Under the pieces are notes generated by a model that made no database searches, was not told the origin of the DNA, and saw nothing but the letters and a program-made list of their open reading frames with translations. Positions 14,493-23,591 of a DNA stretch of 23,591 nucleotides are shown here, piece by piece (within the stretch, counting starts at the first letter, position 1; each line of letters opens with the position of its first letter). The position numbers were made by a program, and so were the translations under genes. Origin of the DNA: a virus; the IMG/VR virus record IMGVR_UViG_3300037189_001020, positions 1 through 23,591 of that record; one strand, given 5' to 3'.

Positions 14493-14499
14493 TAAAAAG

Positions 14500-14524
14500 C
14501 CCCGCTTCGGCGGGGTTTTCTTTT
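14500..14524 (+). terminator. Strong intrinsic terminator after the lysis cassette
   Basis: CCCCGC (14500-14505), loop TTCG, GCGGGG (14510-14515), then TTTTCTTTT. A run of A precedes the stem, so it may also work leftward. It ends the late (virion and lysis) transcript. Confidence 0.95.
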
Positions 14525-14807: not shown

Positions 14808-15046
14808 ACGATATTCTTGACGAACGACAAATAGAGTATGGCGATGCGCTAAGTAACTTTACGACCATTGGAATTGTATGGGGTGCGCTCTTAGGTATTA
14901 AAGAAATACCGGCATATCAAGTAGCCTTAATGATGGACACCCTCAAAACTGTGCGGCTATTTAATAACCCTAGTCACGAAGACAGTTGGTTGGATAAACA
15001 AGGTTATATCCAACACGGAAAAGAGATAGCAAAATATGAGCATTAA
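14792..15046 (+). CDS. DUF6378-like phage protein
   Basis: An 84-residue protein with the conserved order LDERQIEYGDALSNFTTIG, IWGALLG-type helix, AYQVALMMDTLKTVRLFNNP and DSWLDKQGYIQHG. This matches the small DUF6378 family, widespread in phages and of unknown biochemical role. The acidic and His positions (YGDA, SHEDSW) resemble those of small nucleotide-handling helical proteins, but that link is a guess. It overlaps the upstream gene by 16 bases and the phosphoesterase by 11. Confidence 0.7.
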   Translation: MPKELNDILDERQIEYGDALSNFTTIGIVWGALLGIKEIPAYQVALMMDTLKTVRLFNNPSHEDSWLDKQGYIQHGKEIAKYEH

Positions 15047-16070: not shown

Positions 16071-16074
16071 GGTG

Positions 16075-16155
16075 TGAGCAAGGTTACAAAAAAAAGTTAA
16101 AAAAAGTTTGCAAAGGTTCTTGACAAGCGTAATTTACGCGTTGTATCTTATTCCC
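16075..16155 (+). promoter_or_regulatory. Repeated promoter module, copy 1
   Basis: Order: TGAGCAAGGTTAC (from 16075), A-tracts to about 16110, TTGACA (16120-16125), 18-base spacer, TATCTT (16144-16149), predicted start at about 16156. The spacer holds the perfect inverted repeat GCGTAATTTACGC (16127-16139), a likely operator. Related copies lie at 17105, 21785 and 23504. Confidence 0.85.
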
Positions 16156-16174
16156 AACAGGCAGAAAATGCCCC
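16156..16174 (+). promoter_or_regulatory. Conserved 5' leader hairpin, copy 1
   Basis: AACAGGCAGAAAATGCCCC: stem GGCA (16160-16163) with TGCC (16169-16172), loop GAAAA. It begins at the predicted transcript start and ends 20 bases before the ATG at 16195. An ATG inside the hairpin (16168) is in frame with the gene. Confidence 0.7.
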
Positions 16175-16194
16175 AAACGGAAGGAACACGCAAA

Positions 16195-16566
16195 ATGACA
16201 ACACTAAGACAAACAGTTACAGTTGCAGAAATTGCAGAGATGGCACACCGCGCAGGTATGGAAGCGGGTAACCGCGTTATACCTACACCAATGGTAGTTG
16301 TAGATGGCAAAACCGAGCAGGTAGTAGATGTTGTAGATGACGGACTTTGTGGATTTGCTTGGGTCACAATTCGCCCAGCACGAGGCGCATTTGTCAATTA
16401 TCTCAAGGCTCGCGAGTGGGGTAGCCCCGGTTATAACGGCGGGTGGGAAATTTGGGTTAGCAACTTTAATCAGTCAATGACCCGCAAAGAGGCTTACGCA
16501 AGAGCATTTGCATCAGTCTTACAAAATTATGGCATCAACGCTACCGCAGGGTCAAGGTTGGACTAA
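16195..16566 (+). CDS. Conserved phage protein of unknown function
   Basis: A 123-residue protein; ATG 16195 follows GGAAGGAA and the leader hairpin. The N-terminal helix (VAEIAEMAHRAGMEAGNRV) is followed by DDGLCGFAWVTIRPARGAFV, GYNGGWEIWVSNFNQSMTRK and EAYARAFASVLQNYGINATA. The CGFAWVTIRPA and QSMTRKEA stretches recur in many phage proteins I know only as hypothetical. It is the first gene of a separately promoted unit, so probably early. An in-frame ATG at 16168 could add nine residues but has no ribosome binding site. Confidence 0.8.
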   Translation: MTTLRQTVTVAEIAEMAHRAGMEAGNRVIPTPMVVVDGKTEQVVDVVDDGLCGFAWVTIRPARGAFVNYLKAREWGSPGYNGGWEIWVSNFNQSMTRKEAYARAFASVLQNYGINATAGSRLD

Positions 16567-16568
16567 TC

Positions 16569-16769
16569 ATGGCTATCGTTGCCAAGAATTATAAATGCTG
16601 GAGATGCGGTAGAAAAGAACTTATGTTCCCATTATGGGTTGATATGTATGGCAAAACTTGTATGGATTGTATGGATAAATTAGAACGATACAATGACCAA
16701 TCATTCGAAAATAAAATCCGTTTTGCCGAAATGGATAAAATGGCAAATATTGACCGAGGCGATTTTTAG
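16569..16769 (+). CDS. Small zinc-finger-like protein
   Basis: A 66-residue protein two bases after the previous stop. Two Cys pairs (CWRCGRK near residue 10, CMDCMDK near residue 31) fit a zinc-binding treble-clef or ribbon fold, followed by a charged helix (NDQSFENKIRFAEMDKMAN). The partner is unknown; nucleic acid or protein binding is possible. Its 3' end overlaps by four bases the 3' end of a leftward gene. Confidence 0.7.
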   Translation: MAIVAKNYKCWRCGRKELMFPLWVDMYGKTCMDCMDKLERYNDQSFENKIRFAEMDKMANIDRGDF

Positions 16770-16852
16770 ATTGGATTATCTAAAACGGCATCAACAGCAT
16801 CATCTATTGACCAAGAATGCTCTTGAGAGCAAGACCCACAATCCTTACACAT
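16766..16852 (-). CDS. Leftward 28-residue Cys protein MCKDCGSC
   Basis: On the minus strand ATG at 16852 lies within the last eight bases of the gene at 16845-17087, and the frame runs to a TAA at 16766: MCKDCGSCSQEHSWSIDDAV and a short tail ending DNPI. Three Cys in the first eight residues plus a His resemble the MCLECGC start of the rightward 38-residue protein at 1044. The overlapping start suggests translational coupling. Function is unknown and so small a gene needs experimental support. Confidence 0.5.
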   Translation of the reverse strand: MCKDCGSCSQEHSWSIDDAVDAVLDNPI

Positions 16853-17087
16853 CTTCTTCTTCATCATCATCACCGGCATCAACCTCACAGTCGCAGAAAT
16901 CCATAGAGCGAATATCTACGCCCTGCTCTTTTGCGATAACCATTGAGGTTGCTAATAATTCCTTGGCGCGATTAGATAAATCGGTTAATTGGTCAGGGTA
17001 TGACGCCTCTTGTTCTATCTCTACATACAAGCGGTGCAAAGAAATAACGACTCTACCTATAGGTAGTGCTTTTGGTGGTTGGCTCAT
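16845..17087 (-). CDS. Leftward protein with acidic C-terminal tail
   Basis: An 80-residue minus-strand frame: KALPIGRVVISLHRLYVEIE, a helix LTDLSNRAKELLATSMVIAK, DIRSMDFCDCEVDAG and an acidic end DDDEEEDV. It reads like a folded protein, while the rightward frame through the same bases is a low-complexity Ser run made by the acidic codons. The ribosome binding site is weak (GGCAGA region before the ATG). It is divergent from the gene at 17215 across a 127-base gap. Function is unknown; the acidic tail could bind a basic protein or mimic DNA. Confidence 0.6.
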   Translation of the reverse strand: MSQPPKALPIGRVVISLHRLYVEIEQEASYPDQLTDLSNRAKELLATSMVIAKEQGVDIRSMDFCDCEVDAGDDDEEEDV

Positions 17088-17104
17088 AGATAGATTCTGC
17101 CATC

Positions 17105-17177
17105 AATTACAAAACTTTTTCGCGCCACGCCGATTAAGTTCCCAAAATTATGTAATTAGTGTGGCAAGGTAATACCC
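17105..17177 (+). promoter_or_regulatory. Divergent intergenic region with degenerate promoter module (copy 3)
   Basis: The rightward side keeps GTAATT (17152-17157), 20 bases before AACAGG at 17178, plus AAGGTAAT near the -10 place, but no clear TTGACA. AATTAC (17105-17110) puts the same hexamer on the other strand toward the leftward pair. Both sets of genes (17087 leftward, 17215 rightward) must start here. No convincing leftward promoter was found. Confidence 0.5.
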
Positions 17178-17196
17178 AACAGGCTCACAAAGCCCC
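17178..17196 (+). promoter_or_regulatory. Conserved 5' leader hairpin, copy 3 (compensatory change)
   Basis: AACAGGCTCACAAAGCCCC: stem GGCT (17182-17185) with AGCC (17191-17194), loop CACAA. Compared with copies 1 and 2 the closing pair changes from A-T to T-A on both sides, which supports a paired RNA structure. Confidence 0.7.
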
Positions 17197-17214
17197 AAAC
17201 AGGAAGGCAGTAAA

Positions 17215-17787
17215 ATGGCAGGTAGTAATTTTGACCTAGAATCCTATGAGACAGTTGACGAAAGACTCCGTAGGCTTTATACCCAGTTCCCTGATGCAAG
17301 AGTTATTACGGACTTAGTATTCCAAGACGAGCGCAGGTTCGTTATGAAAGCGGAACTGTATCTTGACCGCAACGACATGACCCCAGTTGCTACAGGTTGG
17401 GCAGAAGAAATTGTAGGCGTTGGATTTATCAACAAAAATAACGCCCTTGAGAACTGCGAAACCTCATCAATTGGTCGTTGCATAGCCAACTCGGTTTTAG
17501 TTCTTGGAGTGCCGGAAGGCAAACGCCCATCACGACAAGAGATGGAAAAGCAAGACCGATACAAAGACACACCACGCAAAGCCCCAGCAACTCCAAAGGC
17601 AAAGATTGAATACACGCAAGACCAAATAGACAAAGCCACAGCAATTATTAGCACTATTGCATCTATTGACGATGTAGAAGAACTGCGCCGTATTTGGGCT
17701 ACCGAAACCGAGATACTAGATATTCCGGTCAATAAATCTACACTCAAAGATGTAATTAACACTCGCGCAAAGGCACTTGTTAAGTGA
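17215..17787 (+). CDS. Erf/Rad52-like single-strand annealing protein candidate
   Basis: A 190-residue protein; ATG 17215 follows CAGGAAGG. The N-terminal domain (ETVDERLRRLYTQFPDARVI, then RRFVMKAELYLD and MTPVATGWAEE) leads to NALENCETSSIGRCIANSVL at about 76-94. That resembles the ENxETSAxGRAL motif of Erf, DUF1071 and Sak-type annealing proteins. The C-terminal part (residues 125-190) is a helical domain after a Pro/Lys linker. Expected role is recombination or ssDNA handling during replication. The RusA and nuclease genes of the same unit fit this. Confidence 0.6.
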   Translation: MAGSNFDLESYETVDERLRRLYTQFPDARVITDLVFQDERRFVMKAELYLDRNDMTPVATGWAEEIVGVGFINKNNALENCETSSIGRCIANSVLVLGVPEGKRPSRQEMEKQDRYKDTPRKAPATPKAKIEYTQDQIDKATAIISTIASIDDVEELRRIWATETEILDIPVNKSTLKDVINTRAKALVK

Positions 17788-18149
17788 CGCAGTTGCCATT
17801 AACCCCTTATGCCGGAACTTCAGGTTGGTCAGGGTCAGATACATCACGCGAGCGCGCTAAACAGCAGGATAGCGATGGCACAACAGGCAGACGGCAAAGA
17901 CAGACATTAGTTCATGTAAGACATCAAGAAGAACGAGGTCTTACTTGGAAAGAATTGTCCGAAATTACCAACTGGCATCACGGCTCATCATCAGGAGCGT
18001 TATCGGTATTACACAAAGCAGGAGTATTAGTCCGATTAACCGAACGCAGAAATAAATGTGCCGTTTATGTATCTCCGGAATTTATAAACAACAGAGAAAC
18101 ATCTCAAAGAAAAGTCAAAACTTGCAAACATTGTGGGGGAGAGTTATGA
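17784..18149 (+). CDS. Winged helix-turn-helix protein with C-terminal CxxC
   Basis: A 121-residue protein starting with GTG in a GTGA overlap. Residues 1-40 are polar (SGWSGSDTSRERAKQQDSDG), a start seen in actinophage HTH proteins. GLTWKELSEITNWHHGSSSG and ALSVLHKAGVLVRLTERRNK form a winged HTH with wing strands. It ends KTCKHCGGEL, a single zinc knuckle half. Probable DNA-binding regulator or replication accessory; the target is unknown. Confidence 0.7.
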   Translation: MTQLPLTPYAGTSGWSGSDTSRERAKQQDSDGTTGRRQRQTLVHVRHQEERGLTWKELSEITNWHHGSSSGALSVLHKAGVLVRLTERRNKCAVYVSPEFINNRETSQRKVKTCKHCGGEL

Positions 18150-18439
18150 GCAAAAATAAACCATTTGAGCCTGACCTTGGTTGGGTAGTCAAAGTGCATC
18201 AGATTGTTGCATCAACACGACTTGCCGCTGACAAACTTGATATACCGGCATCTGTTTTATCCGAAGCATTAGAAAATTCAGGGGTTTACCTTGAAGCCGA
18301 CATAATGAGATTACAGGGTGATTCAACCAAAGTAATTATTTTACAAGAAAAAAATCAAGGACTTAAGGTGGTGAAAAATGAGCAACCAAATACTGACTCC
18401 GCAACTAGTGGAGAGCAGATTGAGGGAGTTGAGTCATGA
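18146..18439 (+). CDS. Hypothetical protein (97 aa)
   Basis: Unrecognised. ATG 18146 overlaps the upstream stop (ATGA) with GGGGGAGAG just before it, so it is preferred to the longer in-frame version from 18056. Visible are PDLGWVVKVHQIVASTRLAA, LDIPASVLSEALENSGVYLE, KVIILQEKNQGLKVVKN, and a polar tail. The pattern suggests a small alpha/beta protein with a disordered end. It overlaps the next gene by 62 bases. Confidence 0.65.
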   Translation: MSKNKPFEPDLGWVVKVHQIVASTRLAADKLDIPASVLSEALENSGVYLEADIMRLQGDSTKVIILQEKNQGLKVVKNEQPNTDSATSGEQIEGVES

Positions 18440-18749
18440 AATTGACGACTCACACTCACAACTTATAGAGGCAGAAAGTCATTATTACTCAATAAAAGCA
18501 CAGTATGAGATTGCGCTTGCAAGAACTCGGCTCTCATTTGCAAAACGCACTACACCGACTGGTAAGAATTACACAGTTGGCGAGCGTGAGGATTTGGCAA
18601 TCTTAGAGAACGAGGACTTGCATTTAAGGCTTGCAAGTGCAGAGGCTTTAGTCCGAGGTGCAAGAGCCAATGCACAACGCATACGCACGCAGGTAGATAT
18701 TGCTCGTAGCGTTGGAACAAGTGTCCGAACTAGTATGGATTTATCATGA
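18378..18749 (+). CDS. Coiled-coil phage protein
   Basis: A 123-residue, nearly all-helical protein (VESRLRELSHEIDDSHSQLI, YEIALARTRLSF, LRLASAEALVRGARANAQRI). Proteins with the YEIA-AR and LR-A-A-V pattern and a final QVDI-RSxG are common in actinophage early regions, all of unknown function. AAGGTGGTG precedes the ATG, supporting this start in spite of the 62-base overlap with the gene before. It could be a structural adaptor or regulator. Confidence 0.7.
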   Translation: MSNQILTPQLVESRLRELSHEIDDSHSQLIEAESHYYSIKAQYEIALARTRLSFAKRTTPTGKNYTVGEREDLAILENEDLHLRLASAEALVRGARANAQRIRTQVDIARSVGTSVRTSMDLS

Positions 18750-18880
18750 TAGGAATACGAAATCCGTTTTACCGCAAAGAACAAAAAACAGCATGGGTTA
18801 CCTGCAATCACTGCAGTAGGTCATTTTGTGTTTTTATAGAAAACATACGAGTTGATAATTATTGTTTGAGTTGTAAATGA
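18746..18880 (+). CDS. Tiny zinc-ribbon protein (44 aa)
   Basis: A 44-residue frame in ATGA overlap with both neighbours. It starts MIGIRNPFYRKEQKTAW and holds Cys20-x2-Cys23 and Cys40-x2-Cys43, the four ligands of a zinc ribbon with about 16 residues between pairs. The intact Cys pairs and the two tight overlaps support a real gene. Function unknown. Confidence 0.65.
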   Translation: MIGIRNPFYRKEQKTAWVTCNHCSRSFCVFIENIRVDNYCLSCK

Positions 18881-19047
18881 GCGATATAACAAAAGTTGTA
18901 AATAAACTTATGGAGTTTGGATACACAGATACACAGGCACTTAAAATAGCCAAAGAGATAGAGTCAAATCTTAATGGATACACAAGACAATTAACAAAAA
19001 TAGAAGAAATAAGAAAGGTTGTAACCCGTGTCCGAACAAGAAATTAA
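18877..19047 (+). CDS. Small helical hypothetical protein (56 aa)
   Basis: Starts in an ATGA overlap. It has MSDITKVVNKLMEFGYTDTQ and ALKIAKEIESNLNGYTRQL, followed by a basic end (KVVTRVRTRN). The first 35 residues resemble a small UBA- or HTH-like helical bundle, but no family is recognised. It overlaps the next gene by 20 bases in another frame. Confidence 0.55.
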   Translation: MSDITKVVNKLMEFGYTDTQALKIAKEIESNLNGYTRQLTKIEEIRKVVTRVRTRN

Positions 19048-19186
19048 CCCTGCTATTGGTGAGGCATTTTGGCGAGCCATTTTTACTGGAGAATTACTCA
19101 AAGAAAAAGCAAGCCTTCAACCATTAACTACTGAACAAGAACTTATATTTGACCGAGCCATTACAGTTGTGAGAGGAATCAAATGA
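19028..19186 (+). CDS. Small hypothetical protein, GTG start (52 aa)
   Basis: GTG 19028 follows AGAAAGG at a suitable distance. The 52 residues (MSEQEINPAIGEAFWRAIFT, GELLKEKASLQPLTTEQELI, then FDRAITVVRGIK) are helical and amphipathic. The stop overlaps the next ATG (ATGA). It fills the gap between two better-supported genes, with coding-like composition. Function unknown. Confidence 0.6.
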   Translation: MSEQEINPAIGEAFWRAIFTGELLKEKASLQPLTTEQELIFDRAITVVRGIK

Positions 19187-19389
19187 GCAAAGCACAGAAA
19201 GTATTAGACGATTTACGCATGAGCCTAGAAGAAGAACGCTATTTATTAACCGAAAAATACTGGCGCACTTTAATTGCATCAGAGATTACATCAGGTTTTA
19301 TGCCGAAATGCGTATGCGAGAACTGCGGAACAATCCGCGAGGGTGAACTAATTGCTCGTATTATAGAAAGAGTTACTAATGGTCGTTGA
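19183..19389 (+). CDS. Small Cys-containing hypothetical protein (68 aa)
   Basis: A long helix (KVLDDLRMSLEEERYLLTEK, YWRTLIASEI) is followed by KCVCENCGTIREGELIARII. The close-set CVCENC could bind a metal or an Fe-S cluster with a partner. The ATG lies in an ATGA overlap after GAGAGGAA. It overlaps the nuclease gene by 11 bases. Function unknown. Confidence 0.65.
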   Translation: MSKAQKVLDDLRMSLEEERYLLTEKYWRTLIASEITSGFMPKCVCENCGTIREGELIARIIERVTNGR

Positions 19390-20056
19390 TATTAAAGAGA
19401 TGTTAGCCAAAGCCGTTACGGCTTATGACGGACAGCGTGACCGCTCTAAGCAGGTCAAGATTGGACCAAGTGCTATTGGCGGTTGCAGACGGCGCGTGTA
19501 TCACAACATTATGCGCACCCCAACAACCAACGATACGAGCATGAACTCGTTGCCAGCCATTATGGGAACTTATATTCATGCCGGTATTGCAGAAGCAATT
19601 ACTCGCGAAGACCCATTCGGCGATAATTTTCTTATCGAACAACAGTTTGAAACAGAAAAGATTACAGGCAACATTGACTTATTTATCAAAGACATTGGAT
19701 TAGTTATTGATTGGAAAACAACTAAGGTAAAGTCAATGCGTTACTCACCAAGCAAATCTAATATCTACCAAGTGCAGGTATATGGTTGGATTCTTGAGCA
19801 AAATGGTCACAAGGTCAATGAGGTTGCGCTTTGTTATATTCCGCGTGACGGAGATATTGCAGACATTAGGGTTCACCGAGAGGCTTATTCAGAAGAAATT
19901 GCTCTTGAAGGACTTAAGTGGCTTGACGAAATTTACAATATCGTGGATGCTAGCGCGCAACCCCCAGCACCCGAAGAAAAAGTATTTTTTTGTTCTAGAT
20001 ATTGCTCATATTACGACCCGTCAGGAGAGATTGGATGCCCAAGTATCACCAAGTAG
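19379..20056 (+). CDS. PD-(D/E)XK exonuclease with Fe-S cluster cysteines (Cas4/RecB-like)
   Basis: A 225-residue nuclease. Motifs in order: IGPSAIGGCRRRVYH with Cys36, His67 in GTYIHAG, Asp100 in GNIDLF, Asp111 and Lys113 in VIDWKTTK (the D-xK core), and Gln131/Tyr135 in YQVQVY (QxxxY motif). Cys205, Cys209 and Cys220 near the end pair with Cys36 as four likely 4Fe-4S ligands, as in Cas4 and AddB. There are no Cas neighbours and no repeat array, so it is a phage recombination or replication exonuclease, not CRISPR adaptation. The start has a weak ribosome binding site; coupling by overlap is likely. Confidence 0.85.
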   Translation: MVVDIKEMLAKAVTAYDGQRDRSKQVKIGPSAIGGCRRRVYHNIMRTPTTNDTSMNSLPAIMGTYIHAGIAEAITREDPFGDNFLIEQQFETEKITGNIDLFIKDIGLVIDWKTTKVKSMRYSPSKSNIYQVQVYGWILEQNGHKVNEVALCYIPRDGDIADIRVHREAYSEEIALEGLKWLDEIYNIVDASAQPPAPEEKVFFCSRYCSYYDPSGEIGCPSITK

Positions 20057-20445
20057 ATTGGGATAAGGCAGAGTGCCTAGGTGTCTACACCGATTTGTTC
20101 TTTTCCGTAGAAGAAGAACGAAGCACACAGGCATATATGTATATCAATGCTGTCCGGAGCATGTGTGCGAGATGCCCTATCCAATTTGCGTGTTTATCTT
20201 ATGCATTTGCGCATGAGGGTTATGGTGTATGGGGCGGGCTTACTAGTCCGGAAAGATTATCTATTCACGACAAAGACAAGTATCCATTACAAAGAGCCAG
20301 AGCATTAAAGGCATTAGAGATTTATGGAATCACACTAGACAGAATTAGGGAGGCTTATGAGCATTCGCGTAATGACGGAAGTTTGGAAAACGAATCTGCC
20401 AACTACAGAAAAAATGGTGTTATTGGTAATAGCAGACCACGCTAG
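20035..20445 (+). CDS. WhiB-family Fe-S transcription regulator
   Basis: A 136-residue protein. Four cluster Cys are present: Cys14, Cys44, Cys47 and Cys53 (CARCPIQFAC), followed by the family signature G-VWGG at 64-68. WhiB proteins bind a 4Fe-4S cluster and the principal sigma factor and occur only in actinobacteria and their phages. ATG 20035 follows AGGAGA, so the longer frame from 20002 is not used. It probably steers host or phage transcription. It overlaps the nuclease gene by 22 bases and the replication gene by 89. The C-terminal part beyond about residue 105 is polar and shares its bases with the next gene. Confidence 0.9.
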   Translation: MPKYHQVDWDKAECLGVYTDLFFSVEEERSTQAYMYINAVRSMCARCPIQFACLSYAFAHEGYGVWGGLTSPERLSIHDKDKYPLQRARALKALEIYGITLDRIREAYEHSRNDGSLENESANYRKNGVIGNSRPR

Positions 20446-21163
20446 CGACGATGGCACTAATGCCTACCCTAGCCAAAGGACTATTGCTACCAAGGCAAGC
20501 ATTTCAATTCGGACAGTCCAAAGGTGTGTCAACAACCTCGTAGCCAGCAAGTATTTACAAATGGACAAACACGCTGGCGGGTCAGCAAAATGCAGAGATG
20601 ACCGAAGACCACATTTATACACAATTAACCTAGATAGATTACGGGTGGACAGCGTGACACCTCGTATGCGGGGCGACATTGACGACATAGACGGGGCGAC
20701 AATCACGACAACTACGGGTGGACAATCACGCCCCAAGAACCATACTAATGAACCTTCCTTAGAACCACTCCAGCACTTTGATACTTTTTGGAAAATCTAT
20801 CCTCTCAAAGTCGGCAAAAAACCTGCACAAGCGGCATTTGCCAAGGCAATTAAGGTTGCGACCCTTGCAGTAATCCTAGAGGGGGCAACACGCTACGCCA
20901 GCGACCCAAACAGACACCCTTCATACACCGCCCACCCCTCAACATGGCTTAATCAAGAAAGGTGGGCAGATGCCCCGCTACCGCCCCGAGAGGTAACACC
21001 GCAAGAACGGAAAGAACAAGAATTACAGAAATCTAGGGAGCGAGATGCCCGCGACAGGGCAGACCGAGAGGTATGGCAGAGGGAACTTGAGGAACAAAGA
21101 GCCAAAGCCGTACCACCACCACCAGAAATTATCCAGATGCTTGCCAGAACATTACGAAAATAA
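20357..21163 (+). CDS. Replication initiator-like protein (O/DnaD type) with winged HTH
   Basis: A 268-residue protein. N-terminal winged helix domain (TTEKMVLLVIADHASDDGTN, YPSQRTIATKASISIRTVQR), a polar linker (residues 100-135), then FDTFWKIYPLKVGKKPAQAA and HPSTWLNQERWAD, a C-terminal domain common in phage replication proteins. A charged helix ends it. GGGAGG precedes ATG 20357; the in-frame ATG at 20372 lacks such a site. It probably binds the origin and recruits helicase, though no origin repeats were noticed inside the gene. Confidence 0.7.
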   Translation: MSIRVMTEVWKTNLPTTEKMVLLVIADHASDDGTNAYPSQRTIATKASISIRTVQRCVNNLVASKYLQMDKHAGGSAKCRDDRRPHLYTINLDRLRVDSVTPRMRGDIDDIDGATITTTTGGQSRPKNHTNEPSLEPLQHFDTFWKIYPLKVGKKPAQAAFAKAIKVATLAVILEGATRYASDPNRHPSYTAHPSTWLNQERWADAPLPPREVTPQERKEQELQKSRERDARDRADREVWQRELEEQRAKAVPPPPEIIQMLARTLRK

Positions 21164-21193
21164 TTGCGGAATTTATAACAAAAGGGTTACAAT
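21164..21193 (+). promoter_or_regulatory. Candidate internal promoter
   Basis: TTGCGG (21164-21169), 18 bases, TACAAT (21188-21193). The transcript would start near 21200 and carry GAAAGGAA before ATG 21225. The -10 is the same hexamer as in the lysis promoter. No supporting repeat. Confidence 0.4.
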
Positions 21194-21224
21194 TATGAGT
21201 AATGGTTACGAAAGGAATCGTGCG

Positions 21225-21416
21225 ATGACCAAAGCAATTATCGTGCAACCTAAGAATCTCCAATGCGGAGATACTGTGGTAGTGCGTAATGCTGATTATA
21301 CAGTCGTGGACATTACTGGACCTGACAGAATCGGCACATACGATGTAACAATTATGGATAATTCCGGAGCAAAGCATCTCGAATTACTAATGGATACAGT
21401 TACAATTAAAATGTGA
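21225..21416 (+). CDS. Small beta-rich hypothetical protein (63 aa)
   Basis: ATG 21225 is preceded by GAAAGGAA; the longer in-frame starts (21045, 21195) lack a site or overlap the previous gene. The 63 residues form a small barrel-like pattern: LQCGDTVVVRNADYTVVDIT, GTYDVTIMDNSGAKHLELLM and a final TVTIK strand. It resembles KOW/SH3-like barrels, without a recognised family. It is coupled to RusA (stop overlaps GTG). Confidence 0.6.
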   Translation: MTKAIIVQPKNLQCGDTVVVRNADYTVVDITGPDRIGTYDVTIMDNSGAKHLELLMDTVTIKM

Positions 21417-21787
21417 TTGAATTCAGAGTAGAAGGACAACCAATACCACAAGGCTCAATGAAAGTCTTTAATGGTCATGTTGTTCATAGTCAGGGTAGCG
21501 CGCTCGCCGTGTGGCGTAGTGCTATTGCATACTCGGCTCGTAAGGCTGGTGCATTTCCAAAGAAAGATGCTATTACTATTACTATGGCATTTATTATGCA
21601 GAAACCTAAAACTGTAAAACGCGATTACCCAACTGTGCCACCGGATTTAGATAAATTAATTCGTGCTGTTCTTGATGCGCTAACTGCAATTGCTTATGTA
21701 GATGATTCTCAAGTTTGTGAAATATATGCAACCAAAGGTTATGGATTAGTGCCGGGTGTAAGAATACAAATTGCAGAAAAGGTGTGA
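21413..21787 (+). CDS. rusA: RusA-family Holliday junction resolvase
   Basis: A 124-residue enzyme that resolves four-way DNA junctions. N-terminus VEGQPIPQGSMKVFNG is typical, and PPDLDKLIRAVLDAL (Asp78, Asp80, Asp88) followed by AYVDDSQV (Asp97, Asp98) forms the metal-binding acidic set of RusA. GTG 21413 overlaps the preceding stop (GTGA). The TGA stop is part of the next promoter module (TGAGCAAGG). Works with the annealing protein and nuclease candidates of the same unit. Confidence 0.88.
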   Translation: MIEFRVEGQPIPQGSMKVFNGHVVHSQGSALAVWRSAIAYSARKAGAFPKKDAITITMAFIMQKPKTVKRDYPTVPPDLDKLIRAVLDALTAIAYVDDSQVCEIYATKGYGLVPGVRIQIAEKV

Positions 21788-21865
21788 GCAAGGTTACAAA
21801 AAAAGTTATAAAAACTTTGCCAAATATGCTTGACACGCGTAATTGTTTTGTTGTAGGTTGTAACT
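21785..21865 (+). promoter_or_regulatory. Repeated promoter module, copy 2
   Basis: TGAGCAAGGTTAC starts on the RusA stop codon. Then AAAGTT-AACTTT A-tract region, TTGACA (21830-21835), 18-base spacer with GCGTAATT (21837-21844), TAGGTT (21854-21859), start at about 21866. The spacer has only one arm of the copy 1 inverted repeat. Confidence 0.85.
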
Positions 21866-21884
21866 AACAGGCAGAAAATGCCCC
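21866..21884 (+). promoter_or_regulatory. Conserved 5' leader hairpin, copy 2
   Basis: AACAGGCAGAAAATGCCCC, identical over 19 bases to copy 1: stem GGCA (21870-21873) with TGCC (21879-21882). ATG at 21878 is again in frame with the downstream gene, 30 bases before its likely start. Confidence 0.75.
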
Positions 21885-21907
21885 CAACAAACGAAAGAAG
21901 GCGCAAG

Positions 21908-22237
21908 ATGACAAAGATTATAGTAATAGAACGCGAACGCGATGGAGTGGTTTTAGATAACGACCGCCAAGTTCACGCAGAAGGTTGCGGAGATATACAA
22001 AAGTATCTAAACAAGCCAAATTGGAAAATTACACACACAAGCAATTCAATTATTGAAATTGCAAAAAATGATTACAGCGATTTAGCAAGTGATTACACAA
22101 GCCCTCAAGATGGCGAAGATTATTGGACAAAGGCTTGCCTTAACGAGGCATTTGCTTATCTTTCAGTCAAAACTTGTATTAAACAAATTGTAAATGAGCA
22201 AGTAAAACCATACGCAAAGATTGAGGTAGAAATCTAA
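21908..22237 (+). CDS. Hypothetical protein, first gene of a separate unit
   Basis: A 109-residue protein; ATG 21908 follows GAAAGAAGG and the leader hairpin. MTKIIVIERERDGVVLDNDR starts a beta hairpin, then GDIQKYLNKPNWKITHTSNS, an acidic helix-rich middle (DYSDLASDYTSPQDGEDYW) and a final strand (AKIEVEI). No family recognised. The separate promoter module suggests early expression, perhaps host takeover or DNA metabolism with the glycosylase of the same unit. Confidence 0.75.
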   Translation: MTKIIVIERERDGVVLDNDRQVHAEGCGDIQKYLNKPNWKITHTSNSIIEIAKNDYSDLASDYTSPQDGEDYWTKACLNEAFAYLSVKTCIKQIVNEQVKPYAKIEVEI

Positions 22238-22521
22238 TGGCAAGAGTTAAAGTTAAATTAGCAATAAACCTGCAAGACCTAGAAGATGCAATTCAATCAG
22301 CATTAGAAAATGCTTCAGCCGAAGGCATTGGACCTGATAGTGCTAGTAATTACGAGATTGATAGCGTTGATGTCACAATTAACGACAAAGGCGAAATTGA
22401 AGCAACAATAGGTTGCCAACACCTTGAAGGCAAATGGGCTACAGCAGATGAGGTTGCTGACGAAATTATTAACACAATGGACACAGACATTCAAATTTCA
22501 CTAGAGGCGGTGCAAGCATAA
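22237..22521 (+). CDS. Hypothetical acidic protein (94 aa)
   Basis: Overlaps the previous stop by one base. The N-terminus VKVKLAINLQDLEDAIQSAL is followed by NYEIDSVDVTINDKGEIEAT and a helix ATADEVADEIINTMD. The start (MAR, alternating charge, DLE-A) resembles the start of the next protein, so the two may be distant paralogues. Overall acidic. Function unknown. Confidence 0.7.
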   Translation: MARVKVKLAINLQDLEDAIQSALENASAEGIGPDSASNYEIDSVDVTINDKGEIEATIGCQHLEGKWATADEVADEIINTMDTDIQISLEAVQA

Positions 22522-22853
22522 TGGCAAAAATAGAAATGGAAATTGACGACTTAGAATTATGGGAAGCAGTATTTGGTTCTAGCCCATTTTCTTTTGGGCA
22601 TGGTGAGTGGTTCCCAGAAGCAGAATATCTTGATGACGCAGAATGGGATAAACCCGGCAAGATTAAAATTACAGGCATTGACGATGACGACAACAAAATT
22701 ACAAAAATTCTTACAGTTGAGGATTTAGCAAAAGCGTTACCTATTGCAAACAAATTAGTCAATATGGATTTATTTAATTTTGAGGAATACGATTGCATTT
22801 GCGGTGACGCAGTTTTGCAGGTCGCTATGTTTGGCAAGGTAATTTACGGGTAA
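22521..22853 (+). CDS. Hypothetical strongly acidic protein (110 aa)
   Basis: Begins MAKIEMEIDDLELWEAVFG, then HGEWFPEAEYLDDAEWDKPG, a run IDDDDNK, and a helix VEDLAKALPIANKLVNMDLF. Acidic residues outnumber basic ones by more than two to one by my count. It overlaps the glycosylase start by one base. Acidic small phage proteins can mimic DNA, and its glycosylase neighbour makes that worth testing, but the sequence shows no inhibitor signature. Confidence 0.7.
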   Translation: MAKIEMEIDDLELWEAVFGSSPFSFGHGEWFPEAEYLDDAEWDKPGKIKITGIDDDDNKITKILTVEDLAKALPIANKLVNMDLFNFEEYDCICGDAVLQVAMFGKVIYG

Positions 22854-23506
22854 TGTCGTTATTTTTAGACTTGCCCCCATATTGGCAAGCGGAATTAGCC
22901 GACCTACAATTTAAGGTAGATGCCATAGAAAGCACACTTACCAACGAGGCAAATGCCGGCATCAGAGTTTTGCCTAATTACAATCAAGTATTCCGAGCCT
23001 TAGAGGTTATGCCTTGGGAGTCAAAAGTAGTTATAGTAGGTCAAGACCCATATCCAAACCTTGACCATGCTTGCGGATTGTCTTTTTCAGTTCCGGCACA
23101 TACAAAACCAATAGCAGGTTCGTTACGAAATATCTTTGCAGAGATTAAAAATGATACTGGCAGATACAGCGTTGCATCTAATGGCGATTTGACTCCTTGG
23201 GTCAAGCAAGGTGTAGTGCTTATTAACCGAGTATTAACTGTGCGCCAAGGCGAAAGCGGTTCGCATTTTAATCTTGGTTGGCAAGAAATTACAGAACGCG
23301 TTATTAAAAAGTATGCAGAATTTTCTGTCGGATTATTATTTGGTGGCACAGCAAAACAAATCAAACATTTATTTTGGGATGACCAAGTTGTAACAACAGT
23401 TCACCCGAGTCCGTTATCTGCTCACAAAGGTTTTCTTGGCTCAAAACCATTTACACGCACAAATGCAATTCTTAAAAGTATGGGAAAAGATGTAATTCAA
23501 TGGTGA
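22853..23506 (+). CDS. ung: Uracil-DNA glycosylase, family 1 (Ung)
   Basis: A 217-residue enzyme that removes uracil from DNA. Motifs: GQDPYPN at 63-69 (Asp65, Tyr67; the usual His after Tyr is Pro), GLSFSVP with Phe78, INRVLTVRQGESGSHFNLGW with Asn125, LLFGGTAKQ, and HPSPLSAHKGFLGSKPF with His184. All catalytic positions are kept, so it should be active; the Pro68 change is in the loop next to the water-activating Asp. Last gene of its unit; the stop lies inside the next promoter module. An active Ung argues against uracil-containing phage DNA. Confidence 0.92.
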   Translation: MSLFLDLPPYWQAELADLQFKVDAIESTLTNEANAGIRVLPNYNQVFRALEVMPWESKVVIVGQDPYPNLDHACGLSFSVPAHTKPIAGSLRNIFAEIKNDTGRYSVASNGDLTPWVKQGVVLINRVLTVRQGESGSHFNLGWQEITERVIKKYAEFSVGLLFGGTAKQIKHLFWDDQVVTTVHPSPLSAHKGFLGSKPFTRTNAILKSMGKDVIQW

Positions 23507-23583
23507 GCAAGGTCACAAAAAAAGTTGTAAAAACTTTGCAAATATTCTTGACCGAGCGTAATTTATAAGGTAATGTATTACGA
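23504..23583 (+). promoter_or_regulatory. Repeated promoter module, copy 4
   Basis: TGAGCAAGGTCAC starts on the Ung stop codon. A-tracts with AAAGTT and AACTTT, TTGACC (23548-23553), 17-base spacer with GCGTAATT (23556-23563), TAATGT (23571-23576), start near 23584. The downstream gene is beyond the window. Confidence 0.8.
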
Positions 23584-23591
23584 AACAGGGC
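23584..23591 (+). promoter_or_regulatory. 5' leader, copy 4, cut by the window end
   Basis: AACAGGGC at the last bases matches the start of the other leaders (AACAGGC), so the same hairpin probably continues outside the window. Confidence 0.5.

Follow-up and report, generated by a model that had tools for sequence, protein, structure and literature searches.

Short sites repeated at phage promoters are familiar from the stoperators of cluster A and from other phage operator sets, and 5'-terminal stabilising hairpins are known from the gene 10 leader of phage T7 and from ompA. Here we describe a promoter and leader module that is repeated in the presumed early region of IMG/VR record IMGVR_UViG_3300037189_001020, a linear fragment of 23,591 bases that was analysed as a whole and is referred to as the window. 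Judging by its WhiB protein and its relatives, the fragment probably comes from a phage of freshwater actinobacteria. The explanation we favour, and hold to be reasonably probable, is that each module joins an early promoter assisted by the Crp protein of the host to a 5' hairpin leader that would protect the mRNA.

The start-associated sequences (SAS) and extended SAS (ESAS) of cluster K mycobacteriophages are conserved 13-bp sequences (GGGATAGGAGCCC) located 3-7 bp before the start codon, and about half of the SAS have an upstream inverted repeat (PMC3203893). Like SAS and ESAS (PMC3203893), the repeats described here are short, precede some early or non-structural genes of an actinobacterial phage and are kept with particular genes. 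A reading of the window made earlier from its letters alone, the sequence-only reading, had drawn this parallel, which holds in outline. However, the window stem varies while its pairing is kept, lies 5' of the Shine-Dalgarno sequence and comes together with a complete promoter and a site of Crp type. No GGGATAGGAGCCC was found near the start codon around any of the four window copies, and the stems differ between loci.

Three further systems bear on the parts of the module. The consensus of the actinobacterial regulator GlxR is TGTGANNTANNTCACA, and GlxR mostly activates (PMC4254451). The dyad of the module has the same arms and 6-bp gap as these Crp/GlxR (Rv3676) sites, but it is phage-borne, its centre is mostly AA/TT (GCAAGG) rather than TA, and the window sites match at nine of ten positions. 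In E. coli, Crp with cyclic adenosine monophosphate (cAMP) represses a few promoters of phage T1 (PMC6737242). We likewise propose host Crp on phage promoters, linking phage expression to the metabolic state of the host; unlike in T1, the window sites lie upstream of the promoters, such sites recur at several promoters per genome and activation is proposed. In E. coli, RppH and RNase E are impeded by hairpins at the 5' end (PMC3997798). The window hairpin is similarly predicted to lie a few nucleotides (nt) from the 5' end with an open ribosome site next to it, but it belongs to a family-wide type found at several loci, its stem has been repeatedly rewritten and its stabilising effect is putative.

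Results

The module marks the boundaries of putative early-gene units

From position 15036 onward the window encodes a phosphoesterase/exonuclease, gene 17215, a PD-(D/E)XK nuclease, WhiB, a replication initiator, RusA and uracil-DNA glycosylase (Ung), all on the plus strand except for a small divergent open reading frame (ORF) at 16845-17087. The module features given below are also on the plus strand. A mechanical repeat search recovered copies at 16074, 21784 and 23503, confirming the three copies reported by the sequence-only reading, with TGAGCAAGGT-AC, A-tracts, TTGAC, GCGTAATT and AACAGG where it had placed them. Over 110 nt, copies 1 and 2 share 78% identity, the three copies are 80-93% identical over 40 nt, and blastn gave E values of 1e-27 and 6e-15. 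From 5' to 3' the module consists of a TGTGA-N6-TCACA-like dyad, A-tracts, TTGACA/C, a spacer that includes GTAAT, TAnnnT, AACAGG, a short hairpin, CCAAAC or a similar stretch, a Shine-Dalgarno sequence and ATG. Copy 3 ends with the record, two bases past AACAGG. The degenerate fourth copy noted at 17105 is present, if weak: it has GTAAT, AACAGG, the hairpin, CCAAAC and a Shine-Dalgarno sequence, and lacks TTGAC and the dyad. Taken alone, GCGTAATT is at chance level in the window (3 occurrences, a number also attained by 13 of 100 shuffles, versus 1.3 expected) and was dropped as a stand-alone signal. The whole module, in contrast, is above chance there, and we regard it as almost certainly a real repeat.

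The copies follow the exonuclease, rusA and ung and, in one case, precede gene 17215, and so stand at unit boundaries. The rusA stop TGA (21785-21787) is the TGA within the TGTGA half-site of copy 2, and the ung stop TGA (23504-23506) is that within the half-site of copy 3, there GGTGA; the observation that two copies begin on upstream stop codons thus stands, with the stops inside the dyad half-sites. Since this TGA doubles as the stop of the upstream gene in copies 2 and 3, the cassette takes no extra room. In copy 1 the same TGA is located 5 nt past the exonuclease TAA.

An upstream dyad of Crp/GlxR type

The TGAGCAAGGT-AC element is part of a TGTGA-N6-TCACA dyad, the site type of actinobacterial Crp/GlxR. 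It reads TGTGA-GCAAGG-TTACA in copy 1 (16073-16088) and copy 2 (21783-21798), and GGTGA-GCAAGG-TCACA in copy 3 (23502-23517). We compared eight modules, three from the window and the others from related loci (L036, L037, L118 and two in L024). Each has a 9/10 match, with one departure from TGTGA-N6-TCACA that falls at five different positions in all, and the majority sequence, TGTGAGCAAGGTCACA, matches at 10/10. The distance from the dyad centre to the -35 element is 39.5 bp in seven modules and 38.5 bp in one, and the centre lies at about -75 relative to the predicted start. In L036 the dyad is TGTGG-CAGACT-TCACA, in which the arms are retained and the centre is rewritten. From these comparisons the identification of the dyad as a Crp-type site is well supported and probably correct.

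A scan for TGTGANNAANNTCACAAAAA matched at least 120 stretches, and many of these belong to actinophages in which the perfect dyad occurs several times. This site-rich set is a pattern-chosen sample among the matches listed, and only counts beyond the bait sites served as evidence. The 73 non-redundant phage loci retrieved with such sites hold 211 perfect dyads, 135 of which are beyond the bait, versus 0.8 expected. The excess is confined to the 6-bp gap (other gaps 0-2, scrambled arms 0-3), and 177 of the 202 dyads in 45 site-rich loci fall outside ORFs of at least 80 amino acids. WhiB is encoded in 12 of the 24 whole records tested, which marks the group as actinophages. The exact 16-mer TGTGAGCAAGGTCACA was found in at least five unrelated phages (G006/L035, G007, G028, G029 and G035), which have 3-8 perfect sites each and, where this was checked (L035), no tested window gene in common. 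The copy 3 region has the 23-mer GTGAGCAAGGTCACAAAAAAAGT in common with L035. Because the dyad is common to unrelated actinophages, the 5' element is probably read by a host regulator rather than being phage-specific. Of the phage-specific regulon envisaged by the sequence-only reading, the composite cassette at unit boundaries, with copies in relatives, is upheld, whereas its 5' dyad looks host-read.

Among the site-rich phages (L123-L241, L035) are actinophages with 3-8 perfect sites clustered in one region. The larger records show this; the 117 kb record G010, for example, has eight sites within 9 kb (G010:C1:94980-103583). No prior description of such clusters was found in the literature searched, nor any paper naming host Crp/GlxR at actinophage promoters, subscription papers being outside the search. 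Many of these phages (L123-L241) have a CG-rich box between the dyad and the -35 element, and a repeated GAGCCTAGCAAATAA / GAGCCTAGCGAATAA element comes straight after some dyads (L123, L129, L134, L144, L146 and L148). DnaA-box-like sequences stand beside TGTGATnAATnTCACA in L126-L240 and may mark origin regions.

No Crp-family protein was found in any of the 50 phage records searched, and a phage-encoded Crp was set aside on that ground. One metagenome-assembled genome (MAG) carries a relative of the window exonuclease and also encodes a host-type Crp (L243:1432-2109), next to a gene which, from gene order and our own reading, we take to be nth. The best match of this Crp is M. tuberculosis Crp (E 1e-77), with the stretch LVGASRETVNKALADFA identical and the recognition-helix region the same. 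Crp is present in 56 of 60 genomes of the order to which the MAG belongs, so it is available in the host-type order, the window's own assignment to such a host being a probable one.

The core promoters and the GTAAT element

The A-tracts of copy 1 (16089-16119) are a possible UP element, in which ACAAAAATAGTTGnAAAAA is common to L036, L037, L024 and L118. The core promoters are near consensus: TTGACA-18-TATCTT in copy 1 (16120-16149; predicted start A16156), TTGACA-18-TAGGTT in copy 2 (21830-21859; predicted start A21866; GCGTAATT at 21837-21844), and TTGACC-17-TAATGT with AAACAGG in copy 3 (23548-23589; GCGTAATT at 23556-23563), where the leader is cut by the record end. The main-sigma (sigma-70 type) pattern of TTGACA, 16-18 nt and TAnnnT is seen in copies 1-3 and not in copy 4.

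Within the spacer, GTAAT lies 29-31 nt 5' of the hairpin position in all four window copies (at 17152-17156 in copy 4). Among 38 promoters of gene-17215 orthologues, 20 carry it 27-32 nt ahead of the hairpin, where 0.28 would be expected. In copy 1, where the distance is 31 nt, it is held in the palindrome GCGTAATTTACGC (16127-16139). The 13-bp palindrome is perfect in copy 1 and L036, and L024 has a near-palindrome. GTAAT is also repeated at 12-bp spacing near the divergent gene in over a dozen relatives, and the window codes for a weakly MarR-like protein in addition to WhiB. These observations suit a phage regulator that acts through GTAAT and would block or remodel RNA polymerase there, much as at operator or stoperator sets, with the dyad secondary. 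We judge this possible but doubtful. Only copy 1 and L036 retain the palindrome, other copies having one half; the element is missing from about half of the orthologous promoters (L070 and L079, for example); and no regulator is linked to it. GTAAT may be an operator half-site or, in some promoters, may overlap the -10 element, as GTAATCT would if read like the TAATCT that serves as -10 in L118 and L049, as read from their sequences. Like stoperators, GTAAT is a short site repeated at phage promoters; unlike them it is degenerate and half-site-like, and no immunity repressor was found in the window. Of GCGTAATT, which had been taken for a shared spacer element, the core GTAAT recurs across the family, in about half of the orthologous promoters, and the rest does not.

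A CG-rich box (CGCGACTCGCC / CCGCCGCGCC / CGACACGCC) stands about 60 nt before the hairpin in 31 of the 38 orthologous promoters, versus 1.3 in shuffles. Its carriers include copy 4 of the window (CGCGCCACGCCG, 17121-17132), L049, L089, L090 and L115. A 12-bp direct repeat, CCTGTAATcccgCCTGTAAT, is located by the start of the divergent small gene, upstream of the gene-17215 orthologues, in L038, L044 and L056-L071.

The modules might also be nothing more than strong promoters of the usual host type, equipped with an A-rich UP element and spread by recombination, in which the dyad is an ancestral by-product, no dedicated regulator acts and the hairpin alone is selected. Such promoters would have the near-consensus cores and strongly shared A-tracts described above, and across most of the exonuclease family promoters with hairpin leaders are without the dyad. 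Even so, we consider this unlikely: all eight modules keep a 9/10 dyad at fixed spacing with differing departures, L036 keeps its arms despite the rewritten centre, and the same 16-mer occurs in unrelated site-rich actinophages.

A leader hairpin with conserved pairing

The hairpin begins about 4 nt past the predicted start and is followed by the Shine-Dalgarno sequence and ATG. In copy 1 it is GGCA-GAAAA-TGCC (16160-16172; fold -5 to -6 kcal/mol), with GGAAGG and a spacer (16179-16194) leading to the ATG at 16195. Copy 2 has the same hairpin (21870-21882), followed by GAAGG (21897-21901) and an ATG at 21908, and copy 4, before gene 17215, has GGCT-CACAA-AGCC (17182-17194), a compensatory change relative to copies 1 and 2.

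The pairing is kept across the family. For gene-17215 orthologues we examined 44 non-redundant leaders, a set that was not hand-picked. Most have a hairpin just 5' of the Shine-Dalgarno sequence, and a stem score of at least 12 is reached by 82% of them versus 27% of other gene starts and 19% of shuffled sequences. When halves were swapped between 36 leaders, hand-picked from three gene positions, the mean stem score fell from 14.4 to 4.4; these 36 have 28 different 5' arms with pairing retained. RNAalifold on a MAFFT alignment of 30 orthologous leaders gave the same 4-pair stem, with double compensatory changes at three of the four pairs. The stems include GGGC/GCCC, GAGCAG/CTGCTC, GGTTCC/GGAACC, GATCCG/CGGATC, GAGCC/GGCTC, GGCT/AGCC and GCGC/GCGC. 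Stem length (4-8) and loop length (3-8 nt) vary freely, and the loops have many sequences, often A-rich (GAAA, AAAA, AAAAC). This is strong evidence for an RNA structure, and the view that selection maintains the hairpin as such is well supported and very likely right. AACAGG, proposed as a shared element, is indeed present in the window copies; the family-wide constant, however, is the position and pairing of the hairpin.

A stem about 4 nt from the 5' end, with compensatory changes, is what a 5'-terminal stabilising hairpin would present, although that distance rests on the predicted start; by analogy with the E. coli hairpins, the chances that this one acts as a 5' stabiliser appear about even. 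The stem has no U-run after it, being followed by CCCAAAC and the Shine-Dalgarno sequence, so it is not a terminator; the leader hairpins are missing from the terminator list, and the terminator or attenuator reading of the stem was excluded on this basis. One could still see in the hairpin an attenuator, or a site to which a translational regulator binds, instead of a passive stabiliser, given its constant position right before the Shine-Dalgarno sequence and its often A-rich loops. We find this quite unlikely, as the stem (in sequence and length) and the loop change freely without loss of pairing, a pattern more in keeping with a structural role than with recognition of a sequence, and neither a U-run nor a competing antiterminator was seen.

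Copies in relatives and the spread of the cassette

Since the window is the whole record, the rest of the genome could be searched only in relatives. A loose-pattern scan gave 31 viral-contig matches, of which only L006 (the same as L036) and L024 are true; most were discarded as chance. The exonuclease as bait retrieved 80 loci of a larger family, and Ung as bait retrieved no relatives. A comparison of the module with 50,697 phage records gave no convincing DNA relative, and a known phage repeat was rejected as its identity. Further copies in related actinophage contigs, for which the sequence-only reading had suggested a search, are present in four loci. In L037 one module follows the exonuclease and a second precedes the gene-17215 orthologue; L024 has two, after rusA and 1.5 kb further on (close to the 1.7 kb that separate window copies 2 and 3), and no others in its whole 29.6 kb record; L118 has one, after rusA, and L036 has one. 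A structural scan (TTGAC, 16-19 nt, -10, hairpin, Shine-Dalgarno sequence and start) gave 15 matches in 1.63 Mb on both strands, versus 2.7 in shuffled sequence.

The rusA orthologues with enough downstream sequence have a promoter-like gap after the stop, with a hairpin leader in nearly all, and then differing genes. Stems are the same within one genome (GGCA/TGCC in window copies 1 and 2, GGGC/GCCC in both L024 modules), which fits duplication or homogenisation. The suggestion that the parts move as a unit is therefore only partly right: the place is kept while the next genes change, and stems are shared within a genome. Both observations would also suit modules that serve chiefly as targets of homologous recombination, in which brief stretches of shared sequence between genes allow early-gene cassettes to be exchanged. 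We consider this improbable, because stems differ between genomes, so that long identical stretches are lacking, and the compensatory pairing shows selection for RNA structure. Arthrobacter phage Kepler, which shares rep and RusA, was set aside as a parallel, since its rusA overlaps rep and leaves no such gap. DnaA-box-like TGTGGATAA adjoins promoters after rusA in L047, L048, L056, L057, L059, L070 and L071, possible origin regions. Well upstream of the first module, the window has a strong intrinsic-terminator-like hairpin, AAAGCCCCGCTTCGGCGGGGTTTT, at 14496-14519.

Discussion

We propose that each copy acts as a self-contained expression cassette at the head of an early-gene unit. Host Crp, a cAMP-binding dimer of the GlxR/Rv3676 type, would bind TGTGA-N6-TCACA, whose centre lies some 75 bp before the start, and, together with the A-tract DNA, would recruit host RNA polymerase with its main sigma factor to TTGACA-17/18-TAnnnT. 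Transcription would begin at or near the A of AACAGG; if it begins at that A, the RNA opens with about four unpaired bases and then the small hairpin. The hairpin would keep the decay machinery off the 5' end and leave the ribosome site open, and each unit would thus obtain an mRNA leader that is independent of the gene behind it.

Several points weigh against this proposal. Centres of E. coli class I Crp promoters lie at -61.5, -71.5 and -82.5; the centre at -75 is out of helical phase with these, and activation may differ. Perfect dyads are absent from the window, whose sites are 9/10, from L024 and L118 and from nine further exonuclease-family records, so the Crp part is lineage-specific. 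We also tried global enrichment: 9/10 dyads show no enrichment when every exonuclease-family locus is counted (31 versus 26 expected), and the case was therefore built on position, conservation and the separate site-rich phages. Many promoters of gene-17215 orthologues are without a clear TTGAC, copies 1, 2 and 4 have stems of just 4 bp, and the swapped leaders were hand-picked. The MAG, a candidate host of the window, has a single perfect dyad in 1.5 Mb, and the Crp regulon of the host is putative. Crp may instead repress, as in phage T1 (PMC6737242). Weighing these points, we put the prospect that Crp activates at the window modules at even or marginally better.

The first cultured phages of Candidatus Nanopelagicales were reported in 2023 (PMC10202952). 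Few bacteria of fresh waters are as abundant as the freshwater actinobacteria. We tentatively suggest that early promoters of their phages may form part of the cAMP-Crp regulon of the host, joined in the window lineage by a rewritable, gene-independent hairpin leader. The leaders themselves provide compact 5' hairpins that vary naturally around one architecture. In metagenomes, clusters of the dyad could help to pick out early regions and point to probable actinobacterial hosts. If the promoter set is indeed read by host Crp, the early programme of these phages would be tied to the energy and cAMP state of the host, and the nutrition of the host would be linked to phage expression in lakes in a way that can be tested.

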